From: Ferroplasma sp.
GTDB lineage: Archaea; Thermoplasmatota; Thermoplasmata; Thermoplasmatales; Thermoplasmataceae
Assembly: GCF_031200575.1 (NCBI RefSeq)
Contig: NZ_CP133597.1
Location: forward strand, 372,001 to 436,000
Length of the DNA stretch: 64,000 bases
Direction: 5' to 3'
The notes beneath the pieces are model-generated. The model was not told where the DNA came from, made no database searches, and saw nothing but the letters and a program-made list of their open reading frames with translations. Made by a program: the position numbers and the translations under genes. Within the stretch, counting starts at the first letter, position 1. Every line of letters begins with the position of its first letter. Shown in pieces: positions 27,337 through 31,817 of the stretch.

Positions 27337-30009
27337 ATGGCACAGGGAGAATTTGATCTGGATTTTTTCAGGGATAATAAATTTATCAGGAAGCAATGTT
27401 CAGTATGTTCATCCTACTTCTGGACTTCGGATCCGGGTAAAACTACATGTGGGGACCCCGCATGTGAAAGTTACTCATTTATAGGGAACTCTCCTGTAAA
27501 ACGGCGATACACGCTGGACGAAATGCGTGATGAATTCCTCAACTTTTTCAGGGAAGGCAGCATGAAGCATAAAATCCTTGATTTTTACCCGGTTGTTCCG
27601 AGATGGCGCGAGGATGTGCTGCTTGTAAACGCCTCAATTTATGACTTCCAGCCCCAGGTTACATCAGGCATGGTACCACCTCCTGGCAATCCCATTGCAA
27701 TGTCACAGCCCAGTATAAGAATGCTTGACCTGGATCTTGTTGGGAAAACCGGAAGGCATCTCACCTCATTCGAGATGCTATGCCATGATGCATTCAATTA
27801 TGAAGATAAATATGTTTACTGGAAAAACGAAACTGTTGAGTATTCATACAGATTTTTGACTGACAGGCTTGGTATAGATGGTAAAATAATAACATACAAG
27901 GAAAAGCCATGGTTCGGTGGTGGCAATGCGGGCAATGCAGTTGAGGTTTTCGTTAGGGGACTTGAGGTTGCCACACTGGTTTTCATGGATCTGAAAGAAG
28001 ATCCGGAGGGCGATATAGACATAGAAGGAACCAAATATTCTCCCATGCCATTGAAGATCGTTGATACCGGGTACGGTCTTGAAAGACTGGTATGGCTCTC
28101 CGCCGGAACTCCCACAGTATATGAATCAATATTCCAGGAAACCATCAGCCACATAATGGGGAATTCCTCCGTCAGTGGCATTGATGATAAGATAATTCAA
28201 AAAATATCTGAGCTATCTGCCGAAATAGATCCATACAGGGAATCCGATCTTCTGAAACAGTTAAGGCCCTATATGGAAGAGAATAATCTGCAAATGGGGG
28301 AAGAATTTCTCCAGAGGCTGAAAAAACTCAGGGCCCTGTATTCCCTCGCAGATCACACGAAAACTCTGCTCCTGATGTTTTCAGATTATGTTATACCATC
28401 TAATGTGAAGGTAGGCTATCTGGCGCGGACACTAATAAGGAGATCCCTGAAATTTATTGAGGACACAGGGTTCAAAAAGGATTTCATGGACCTAATGGAT
28501 TTTCAGTACGGCGTATTTTCAAAAATAATTAAAAATTATGACAGGGGGTTCATATCTGATATCATATCCATAGAAAAAGAAAAATATGAAGAGATAACAA
28601 GAAGTGCAGAAATAAAGGTAAGAAAATACATAAAATCAGGAGAATTGAGGCTGGAAGATGCGATCACCCTGTATGAATCTGAGGGCATAAATGAGGAACT
28701 CATAAAAGAGAGCTACAGAAAAATTACTGGAAATGACATGGAACTGCCCGATAATTTTCAGGAAATAGTTATTGCAGGGCATGAAAAGAAAAATGTGAAG
28801 AAGAAAAAGCATGAACAGTACCCTCCTGTCCATACCAGACCCCTTTATTATGACAACACGGAAATTTCTGAGTTCACTGCCATTGCACTGTATTCAGGCG
28901 ATAAAAGAATAATACCTAACCAGACTGCATTTTACCCGGAAGGAGGGGGCCAGCCATGTGACCTAGGCTACTTTATTGCAAACGGGAAAAGGGTAAATGT
29001 CACGGATGTTCAGAAATACGGCAACTCCATAGTGCATTTTCTCGATGGTGATATACCTCAAAATTCCAGGATAAAGGGCGTAATTGACTATGCCAGAAGA
29101 AGGCAGTTAATGATACACCACTCTGCAACCCATCTGCTTCTCGGGATAATGAGAAAGTATTTCGGTGAGCATATATGGCAGAGCGGTGTCAAAAAAGATG
29201 TTGATGAATCCAGAATAGATGTAACCCACTACAGAAAAATCACACTGGAGGATATCAGGAATATAGAAGATATGTGCCTGGAGGCCATAGAACAGAACAG
29301 GAAAATAACCGTTGCTAACGTAAGCTGGAATCCTGCTATAGAGAAATATGGCTTCAGGCTCTTCGAGGGCGGTGTGCCTGTCTCTTCAAAAATAAGGGTT
29401 GTAACGATTGATGGCATAGATTCGGAGGGCTGCGGTGGTACACATCTGAAAAACACAGGTGAGATAGGATTCATTAAAATTATGAAAACCGAGACAATAC
29501 AGGAAGGGATACAGAGGATTACATTCGCCGCCGGGCCCGCTGCATTGAGATACGTACAGATTCTCCATGATACAGTGGTGAGAGAGCAGGAATATATGAA
29601 GGTAGATTTAAAGGACGTTTACAGCCATTCAATGGAAATTTTTCATGAAAATCTTGAGAATATTAAATTGATAGATAAATACAGAAAGGAAAAGATAGAG
29701 GGCATTATAAATAATCCTGCTATGGAAGGAAATATAAGCCTGTACATCACCGATCTGGACAGGGATGAACTTAACCTACTGATACAGGGAATTTTCAGGA
29801 AAAATTCACAATCCATTGTAATAAACCGTGGAAATGAAATAACAGGAATAGGGATTGAGCCTGTTGTTAACAGGCTGTCATCGTCCATGCTGGAGCACGG
29901 TATACATATCAGGGAAAAGACCAGAAATAAAAAACTATTCAGTGCAATCTCAGATAGTGGAATAAGTGAAAAGTTAATAAAGGAGATTTTAGTAGATGCT
30001 ATAATATGA
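27337..30009 (+). CDS. alaS: Alanyl-tRNA synthetase
   Basis: An 890-residue class II synthetase of archaeal type. The N-terminal zinc ribbon CSVCSSYFWTSDPG precedes the catalytic core. The editing domain carries HHSATHLL and CGGTHLKNTGE, the metal-binding motifs that hydrolyse Ser-tRNA and Gly-tRNA. A C-terminal helical domain completes it. The start ATG 27337 lies after an AT-rich promoter. The following membrane gene overlaps by 4 bases (ATGA), so the two are co-transcribed. Confidence 0.96.
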   Translation: MAQGEFDLDFFRDNKFIRKQCSVCSSYFWTSDPGKTTCGDPACESYSFIGNSPVKRRYTLDEMRDEFLNFFREGSMKHKILDFYPVVPRWREDVLLVNASIYDFQPQVTSGMVPPPGNPIAMSQPSIRMLDLDLVGKTGRHLTSFEMLCHDAFNYEDKYVYWKNETVEYSYRFLTDRLGIDGKIITYKEKPWFGGGNAGNAVEVFVRGLEVATLVFMDLKEDPEGDIDIEGTKYSPMPLKIVDTGYGLERLVWLSAGTPTVYESIFQETISHIMGNSSVSGIDDKIIQKISELSAEIDPYRESDLLKQLRPYMEENNLQMGEEFLQRLKKLRALYSLADHTKTLLLMFSDYVIPSNVKVGYLARTLIRRSLKFIEDTGFKKDFMDLMDFQYGVFSKIIKNYDRGFISDIISIEKEKYEEITRSAEIKVRKYIKSGELRLEDAITLYESEGINEELIKESYRKITGNDMELPDNFQEIVIAGHEKKNVKKKKHEQYPPVHTRPLYYDNTEISEFTAIALYSGDKRIIPNQTAFYPEGGGQPCDLGYFIANGKRVNVTDVQKYGNSIVHFLDGDIPQNSRIKGVIDYARRRQLMIHHSATHLLLGIMRKYFGEHIWQSGVKKDVDESRIDVTHYRKITLEDIRNIEDMCLEAIEQNRKITVANVSWNPAIEKYGFRLFEGGVPVSSKIRVVTIDGIDSEGCGGTHLKNTGEIGFIKIMKTETIQEGIQRITFAAGPAALRYVQILHDTVVREQEYMKVDLKDVYSHSMEIFHENLENIKLIDKYRKEKIEGIINNPAMEGNISLYITDLDRDELNLLIQGIFRKNSQSIVINRGNEITGIGIEPVVNRLSSSMLEHGIHIREKTRNKKLFSAISDSGISEKLIKEILVDAII

Positions 30010-31817
30010 GAGATTCTCAGATCATAGAAGGTATTGTTAAAAAATATTACGGCTTCTCGGATGTTGAGAATACTAAATATTCTATAATATTCCACATAAA
30101 TACTCCAGGGAACGAAAAGACGTTTGAATTGCTTCTGGCAGACCTTGATAGGATAGGTGTTACTGCATTTACAAATGACTTTCCTGATAGCCAGATAATA
30201 GTCATAAATAGCTCAAACCTCGGCAGGGAAAGGGCTGGCATTAAAACTATCATGTTCCTGATCTCAATAATAACACTGGTATATGCCGGATACTCCTATT
30301 CATCAGATTATTATTCACACATCTCATTTCATGGCGGAATTTTAGACGGTATACTGCTCTATGCGGTGCCTGTTTTAGGTGTACTTTTAACACGGGAAGG
30401 GGGTAAATATCTGTATCTGAAAAAAAGGCACATACAGTATAGATTTCCAATTTTTGTTCCATCTCCGGGAATTGGAACCCTTGGAACCATAAACTCCAAT
30501 AAAAGCCAGTTCCGGGAATCAAAATCCATGGTAATGGCGGGCACCGTTTCTCTATTATCCGGTTTTGCCCTGTCTATTATCCTTATAACATTAGGTTCAA
30601 TTACATCCCCATTTATACAGTACAGCAGTTTAGTAAGGTCTCCAATATCATATCTTAATTTTCCTGTAATTTATCCAGTTTTGATTGACCGTTTTATTCC
30701 TGTATCAATTGTTCCTGACCCACTTGCACTGGCAGGATATACCGGCCTTGTAACCACTGCCATAAACGCTATACCTGCTGGATTCCTTGATGGGGGCCTG
30801 GTATTCTCAGGGTTAGCAGGAAGGAGCTTCAGGTACATTTCATATGTTTCAATAGCCCTGCTGATTCTTGCCGCGATTCTGTATCCGTATATACTCATTC
30901 TTGTTGTTCTTCTGTTCCTCCTGGGAATTAAGGGTGCCCTTCCAATGAATAACCTTGTCATGCCAGGGCATTATGCGAAGTATCTCACCATAATTATAAT
31001 AATTATAATACTTCTGGGGTTTGCGCCACTTCCATTCCATAATACAAATAACAGCAGTGTTATTATTCCTGATTCGTACTACGTTATAGATAAACAGAGC
31101 CCGGACAATGTAAGTGTTAATATAACAGTAAATGAGCACGGATCCCGCATCATACCCTCATTCTCTGTGCACCCGGGAAAATTTTCTATAATGGGGCACA
31201 AAAGAGATAATGCCACAGCTGTAACATACATACTTGAACTTATAACATATAAATCCAACTATTCCGGGATTAAGCATTTTAATATCACTGTAAACACCGG
31301 TACTTCAATATTTCATAAAACCGTGACTGTATATTTTCTGAACCCGGTTAAAAATATTAGTGTAAATAACTCTGATGAGCCATTAACTTTAACAAAATAC
31401 CAGAACGAACCTTTCAATTTGACCCTTTACAATAACGGCACATCTCCAGTGGAGGCAACGCTGCTATCCTTTTCAGGCAACATGGGCGTTTATATGATGG
31501 TACCATCCAGGAACACATTCATAAATCTGGCAGGGGATCCCTTCACCGGATTAACCTTTACAATTAGCCCGGAAAATAACACAACAATGGAATTTGAGGT
31601 CACAACTCCAGGTATATGGAAACTGGCAATACTGGAATCAAATAACATGGCCATGATTATAACGGTACACATACTTCCCCGGCAGATATCGCCACCCCTG
31701 CCTCCTCCCATAAATATGCAGACATGGCCTGGCACCAATGAAACCGGCGGGACATTTCAATTCAACCTAACATGGTACTATTCCGGGACAATACAGGAAA
31801 ACTATTCAGAATTCTAA
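30006..31817 (+). CDS. Site-2-protease-like membrane protein lacking zinc ligands
   Basis: A 603-residue protein. Residues 80-340 hold several hydrophobic helices arranged like an M50 intramembrane protease of the EGY1 type. The metal motif His-Glu-x-x-His is replaced by Arg130-Glu131-Gly-Gly-Lys134 (in LTREGGKYLYL), while the Leu-Asp-Gly motif (GFLDGG, residues 260-264) and GIGTLGTI loop remain. It therefore looks catalytically dead. The last ~260 residues form a beta-rich outer domain with more than ten N-x-S/T sites, consistent with N-glycosylation on the surface. It overlaps AlaRS by 4 bases. A binding or chaperone role is possible, as in inactive rhomboids, but this is inference. Confidence 0.8.
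   Translation: MRDSQIIEGIVKKYYGFSDVENTKYSIIFHINTPGNEKTFELLLADLDRIGVTAFTNDFPDSQIIVINSSNLGRERAGIKTIMFLISIITLVYAGYSYSSDYYSHISFHGGILDGILLYAVPVLGVLLTREGGKYLYLKKRHIQYRFPIFVPSPGIGTLGTINSNKSQFRESKSMVMAGTVSLLSGFALSIILITLGSITSPFIQYSSLVRSPISYLNFPVIYPVLIDRFIPVSIVPDPLALAGYTGLVTTAINAIPAGFLDGGLVFSGLAGRSFRYISYVSIALLILAAILYPYILILVVLLFLLGIKGALPMNNLVMPGHYAKYLTIIIIIIILLGFAPLPFHNTNNSSVIIPDSYYVIDKQSPDNVSVNITVNEHGSRIIPSFSVHPGKFSIMGHKRDNATAVTYILELITYKSNYSGIKHFNITVNTGTSIFHKTVTVYFLNPVKNISVNNSDEPLTLTKYQNEPFNLTLYNNGTSPVEATLLSFSGNMGVYMMVPSRNTFINLAGDPFTGLTFTISPENNTTMEFEVTTPGIWKLAILESNNMAMIITVHILPRQISPPLPPPINMQTWPGTNETGGTFQFNLTWYYSGTIQENYSEF

Follow-up and report, generated by a model that had tools for sequence, protein, structure and literature searches.

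The gene that lies directly downstream of alaS, the gene for alanyl-tRNA synthetase (AlaRS), in a 64,000-nucleotide stretch of a Ferroplasma sp. genome (NZ_CP133597.1, bases 372001-436000 of a single contig of 1.86 Mb; hereafter the window) encodes a relative of the site-2 proteases (S2Ps, family M50) in which both zinc-binding histidines have given way to basic residues. We propose, with a probability of roughly two in three, that its product is a pseudoprotease, that is, a non-cutting binding or regulatory protein of the S2P family that is fixed throughout the archaeal family to which this organism belongs. That GTDB family, labelled f1 here, comprises Ferroplasma, Thermoplasma, Acidiplasma and their relatives, and other families are numbered likewise (f4, f19 and so on). 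Among the named relatives of this genome are Ferroplasma acidarmanus Fer1, Acidiplasma aeolicum, Thermoplasma sp. and Thermogymnomonas acidicola. Residues are numbered as in the 603-residue window protein, and we refer to homologues lacking and keeping the zinc motif HExxH as dead and active, respectively.

A substituted zinc site

In S2Ps the zinc ion is bound by the two histidines of HExxH and the aspartate of an LDG motif, and the glutamate of HExxH is catalytic. We located the equivalent positions of the dead protein by alignment to HExxH-bearing orthologues. The profile of the active relatives retrieves the S2P of Methanocaldococcus jannaschii (MJ0392, PDB 3B4R) with HELGH and DGG in register, and an alignment of the dead with the active profile runs over their full length, 551 columns (hhalign, E 2e-77). 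Together these alignments identify R130 and K134 as the positions of the two zinc-binding histidines, E131 as that of the catalytic glutamate and D262 as that of the third zinc ligand. The original prediction, made from the DNA letters alone, had read the motif REGGK at residues 130-134 beside a retained Leu-Asp-Gly motif, and had concluded that the protein is a catalytically dead S2P homologue. Both motifs stand in the sequence as described (LDGG at 261-264), and the comparison with relatives bears the conclusion out.

A homologue of the pseudoprotease is present in all 77 genomes of family f1, which span 19 genera, and the alignment of the 77 distinct dead sequences showed that: 1) residue 130 is arginine in 75 sequences and lysine in the other 2, residue 134 lysine in 46 and arginine in 31, such that every sequence reads [RK]Exx[KR] where an active zinc protease has HExxH. 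2) E131 and D262 are invariant (77/77), the latter within a retained NxxPxxxLDG motif (N254 in 72, P257 in 76 and G263 in all 77). 3) The histidine that follows LDGG in the active proteins is gone from all 77. 4) Between residues 77 and 340 the columns that are charged in 100% of the dead sequences are exactly 130, 131, 134 and 262. 5) R166, Q260, H265, R268 and H310, the other charged or His/Gln residues invariant in the active proteins, are lost. 6) Residue 145 (30438-30440), alanine in the active proteins, is tyrosine in all 77. Among 50 columns invariant in the active proteins, 16 are kept in the dead clade, 33 are variable (position 134, always K or R, being scored as variable) and one is fixed to a new residue. 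Active orthologues, 24 from the order and 19 from the wider class, in turn have HExxH and LDGGH without exception; the same site was confirmed in 29 order-level loci (some of them repeats) and in 2 more loci. Every sister family yielded alaS-linked orthologues, and all those read have HExxH intact.

Pairwise ratios of nonsynonymous to synonymous substitution rates (dN/dS) are 0.05-0.23 for the whole pseudoprotease gene and 0.04-0.19 for its membrane core, and the gene is under purifying selection. Judged from these sequences, the basic swap at both histidine positions is ancient and fixed across family f1. As the four charged columns and Tyr145 are fixed in the dead clade, the active site is held in a new state and is not in simple decay. 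A sequencing error or pseudogene was rejected on account of the 77 distinct sequences and the dN/dS range of the whole gene, and a recent loss in a single species on account of the 19 genera that share the dead form; lateral acquisition of a dead gene is not favoured, the locus being the same as that of the active orthologues. A further substitution concerns residue 80 (30243-30245), asparagine in the active proteins and lysine or arginine in 74 of 76 dead sequences.

The loss of zinc-protease activity may be taken as near certain. An unorthodox yet active metalloprotease, with its metal held by other ligands, could build on the catalytic glutamate and the ligand aspartate, which persist in every dead sequence; but both histidine ligands are now cationic and would repel a metal, the histidine after LDGG and His310 are also gone and no substitute ligands are conserved, making this extremely unlikely. 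The four residues R/K130, E131, K/R134 and D262 would carry a net charge of zero (+2, -2), equal to that of Zn2+ with Glu- and Asp-, and a salt-bridge cluster therefore probably took the place of the metal. We envisage that, where the active site used to be, the four charges pair as a metal-free, net-neutral quartet that would keep the membrane core folded and non-catalytic. Such a charge-conserving exchange, of Zn2+ and two neutral histidines for Arg and Lys with Glu and Asp kept, would amount to a simple rule by which a metal can be lost and the fold kept. Alternatively, the role of the quartet might be not that of a structural salt bridge but that of a new functional site, for instance an ion or proton relay or a centre of non-metal chemistry. 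Four in-membrane charges that are absolute in 77 sequences go beyond what stability alone usually needs, Tyr145 is fixed where the active proteins have alanine, and these acid-loving archaea have steep proton gradients across their membranes. However, apart from the quartet no conserved nucleophile or full polar path is seen, few of the other conserved polar residues survive, and the free interchange of K and R at position 134 suggests that charge rather than chemistry is selected; a re-purposed centre is hence unlikely.

Homology, predicted fold and sidedness

The pseudoprotease belongs to the M50/site-2 protease superfamily by common ancestry and by its M50-type core. The Pfam M50 profile is matched by all 41 aligned relatives at E<=0.1 (best 3.8e-8) and strongly by active relatives (1.2e-23 and 4.9e-20). 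Sequence searches of the PDB with the dead protein or the dead profile returned no S2P, and only the active profile reached 3B4R. The M. jannaschii S2P is a zinc enzyme whose solved chain of 224 residues has no immunoglobulin (Ig)-like ectodomain, unlike the archaeal protein studied here. An AlphaFold2 model built with 94 sequences (mean predicted local distance difference test score, pLDDT, of 83, with most of the membrane core above 90) has core helices at residues 77-103, 108-140, 172-200, 239-254, 262-292, 296-306 and 322-337, preceded by a small alpha/beta domain (residues 1-76) that is shared with the active orthologues and followed by beta sandwiches. In Foldseek searches of the PDB these sandwiches match tandem Ig-like proteins, and the active alaS-linked orthologue has the same domain plan, including the tandem Ig-like ectodomain (AlphaFold2, Foldseek). 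The multi-helix membrane core with an added ectodomain in the predicted model, taken with the end-to-end profile alignment, agrees with the M50-like layout that had been read from the sequence.

The pseudoprotease is the positional orthologue of the HExxH-bearing, alaS-linked S2Ps of sister families, which have the same tandem Ig-like ectodomain. It resembles the alaS-linked S2Ps of other Thermoplasmata families in N-terminal domain, core, ectodomain plan and gene neighbor, whereas these have both HExxH and LDGGH and presumably still cut.

From the model, the core probably consists of seven transmembrane segments with the N-terminus inside and the C-terminus outside, and the N-terminal domain is probably cytosolic. 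The C-terminus is placed outside because enrichment of N-glycosylation sequons (N-x-S/T) is confined to the ectodomain: residues 345-603 of the window protein hold 16 against 5.5 in shuffled sequences, about threefold, whereas its N-terminal and membrane part holds 2 against 1.5. More generally, ectodomains contain 10.3 sequons against 4.6 expected in dead proteins and 12.2 against 4.4 in active ones, with no enrichment elsewhere in the protein. The earlier count of more than ten such sites in an outer domain was thus correct, and the predicted tandem Ig-like fold and the sequon enrichment support the idea that this large domain is glycosylated. The Pfam STT3 model has no match in this genome; N-glycosylation nevertheless stays plausible in this organism, because the NCBIfam archaeal STT3 model matches at 4e-51, below the cut-off of that model, which points to a divergent AglB-like gene. 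The AglB/STT3-like domain lies at G000:C1:14054-15808(-) within an open frame of 2057 aa, an unusually long candidate for an oligosaccharyltransferase.

A second, short copy and the origin of the dead clade

Family f1 carries two S2P copies. One is the long dead protein encoded beside alaS; the other, a short copy of about 360 aa, keeps HExxH, has no ectodomain and adjoins NurA-HerA in most of the f1 loci examined. The other families of the order have one S2P copy in each genome with a match (two in one genome), and the copies read from them have HExxH and lie mostly beside alaS where the neighborhood is legible. In the full tree the dead and short clades are sisters within the active proteins of the order, with a Shimodaira-Hasegawa-like approximate likelihood ratio test (SH-aLRT) value of 100. 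The simplest history that this suggests is one duplication on the f1 stem, after which one product retained the ectodomain and the other the zinc site. In the f1 ancestor the copy that stayed next to alaS would have become specialised for binding or regulation without cutting, with its glycosylated ectodomain acting as the receiver, and the copy that moved away would have gone on working as a protease. We lean towards a non-cutting membrane protein of this kind with a glycosylated sensing domain, and client binding without cutting, as in iRhoms, is plausible by analogy. The client is the least certain element: it might be the active S2P, one of the membrane substrates of that enzyme or some different surface protein. 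In genus g11, two genomes have two long dead-type copies per assembly (L013/L110 and L077/L111).

Several observations weigh against the proposed pseudoprotease and its history. The match of Pfam Peptidase_M50 to the window protein is weak (1.8e-4) and its 21.4 bits fall below the gathering cut-off of 27.2, a shortfall to be expected of a protein that no longer matches the zinc half of the profile. The listed Foldseek matches of both the dead and the active model cover the Ig-like part only, leaving the membrane core without a match to known structures; as these matches are dominated by the ectodomain, Foldseek neither supports nor refutes the fold of the core. The stems of the dead and short clades are both long, and each clade shifts when the other is omitted from the tree: the short copies alone fall next to family f4, and the dead ones alone beside all active proteins of the order. 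Owing to the long stems and shifting placement the point of duplication relative to the sister families is uncertain; a tree of alaS joined f1 with f4, weakly.

The two copies might also act together. Tentatively, the dead protein could be a regulatory partner of the short active S2P in a split two-subunit enzyme, sensing or recruiting extracytoplasmic substrates and handing them over or withholding them. Both copies co-occur in f1, no other family of the order showed the duplicated pair, the ectodomain and HExxH complement each other as halves of the ancestral function, and there is precedent for membrane proteins that control an S2P by filling its active-site cleft, as BofA/SpoIVFA do on SpoIVFB (PMC9042235). 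However, the two genes are unlinked, one at the alaS locus and the other at the NurA-HerA locus, and in the record of F. acidarmanus Fer1 the short gene is split and the dead gene intact, although this split looks like an insertion sequence (IS) or assembly effect. The specific form in which a zinc subunit without ectodomain and a metal-free ectodomain subunit, acting as substrate receptor or gate, work together as one split intramembrane protease seems slightly more doubtful still. In the Fer1 record one part of the short gene lies beside an IS3-like element at NurA and the other at the record end; as the record ends inside the gene beside an IS copy and begins in a CRISPR-like repeat array, the split is probably an assembly effect. 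A natural knockout of the short S2P in F. acidarmanus was set aside for this reason, an effect of assembly or of the IS being the probable cause.

Relation to known inactive intramembrane proteases

Our search of the literature found no prokaryotic S2P pseudoprotease, the only one described in the papers searched being EGY3 of plants. This chloroplast protein is an S2P homologue without HExxH or proteolytic activity that is highly conserved in its lineage and, according to its authors, confined to plants; its active paralogues EGY1 and EGY2 occur in the same cell, and it is reported to stabilise other proteins (PMC9355673, PMC10978774). The pseudoprotease of f1 is likewise a lineage-conserved S2P homologue without HExxH with an HExxH-bearing paralogue in the same cells, and it is EGY3-like by role in that the zinc motif is lost and the predicted fold retained under purifying selection. 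Unlike EGY3, it groups inside the S2Ps of Thermoplasmata and their phylum Thermoplasmatota, with an alaS-linked active orthologue, and has a tandem Ig-like outer domain and the fixed R/K-E-x-x-K/R quartet. The iRhoms are inactive rhomboids (PMC3149277) and offer a second parallel, as relatives of an intramembrane protease that lack catalysis and are conserved beside active paralogues; but rhomboids have an unrelated serine-protease fold, whereas the homology of the archaeal protein is to M50, and the likeness would be one of role only. The protein of f1 would thus be a family-wide, anciently fixed archaeal S2P pseudoprotease, of a kind that our search found described otherwise only in plants. 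As sister families retain HExxH orthologues and the f1 cells themselves an HExxH paralogue, it would provide a natural before-and-after experiment in the change from an intramembrane protease to a binding protein.

Linkage to alaS

The pseudoprotease gene was predicted to overlap alaS by 4 bases, which it does (ATGA), and to be made together with AlaRS. Of 77 dead loci, 68 have alaS no more than 60 nt upstream and 5 (Thermoplasma included) have it 254-385 nt away; it is non-adjacent in one, and three loci are too close to a contig end to judge. The commonest spacing is -4, both in dead loci (16/77) and in active loci of the order (8/24). At the exceptional locus (L085/L219, a complete genome) the gene for a 752-aa AAA ATPase, which we take to be VAT-like, stands upstream instead; the pseudoprotease is kept there, and the link is therefore not strictly required. 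Active S2Ps of other families of the class also have alaS beside them, within 100 nt in f19, f25, f26 and f28 and with one gene between in f22 and f30, and hence the link is older than the loss of catalysis; the adjacency is missing in many families of the class. The conserved linkage, older than the loss of catalysis and absent from one complete genome, lends circumstantial support to co-production with AlaRS. Most likely it is an inherited operon context that would keep the two genes steadily co-expressed, and tRNA charging would have no functional part in it. A functional coupling, whereby the membrane protein anchors or regulates AlaRS or answers alanine or translation stress, would fit the conservation of the adjacency across the order, the often overlapping genes and the recurrence in other families of the class, but is distinctly unlikely given the age of the link, its occurrence with active S2Ps, its patchy distribution in the class, the L219 genome, and a domain content that holds nothing tRNA-related. 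The features of the locus are collected in Table 1.

Table 1. Features of the alaS-pseudoprotease locus (window positions unless stated) and the short S2P gene of the same genome
Feature	Position	Strand	Basis
S2P/M50 pseudoprotease gene, 603 aa, ATG start	30006-31817 (coding 30006-31814)	+	ORF (open reading frame)
alaS, alanyl-tRNA synthetase, 890 aa	27337-30009	+	ORF; homologous alaS upstream in nearly all family/order members
ATGA 4-nt overlap, alaS stop/pseudoprotease start	30006-30009	+	Sequence
Small N-terminal alpha/beta domain, residues 1-76 (predicted)	30006-30233	+	AlphaFold2, pLDDT 76-90; alignment with active proteins
Membrane core, M50-type, residues 77-340	30234-31025	+	AlphaFold2 helices; hydropathy
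Degenerate zinc motif R130-E131-G-G-K134, in place of HExxH	30393-30407	+	Sequence, alignment
L261-D262-G-G, D262 invariant, following His lost	30786-30797	+	Sequence, alignment
Predicted extracytoplasmic tandem Ig-like beta-sandwich domains, residues 345-560, sequon-rich	31038-31685	+	AlphaFold2, Foldseek PDB, sequon count
C-terminal tail, residues 561-603, low confidence	31686-31814	+	pLDDT <60; long in close relatives only (alignment)
Short S2P copy, 359 aa, HExxH and LDGGH intact, no ectodomain	G000:C1:450393-451472, outside window	-	Same genome

A conserved protein of about 200 aa, with an N-terminus like ...EITKVGPIVRR, is encoded close to alaS and the active S2P, or in between, at three loci (L202, L207 and L210, in f22, f27 and f30).

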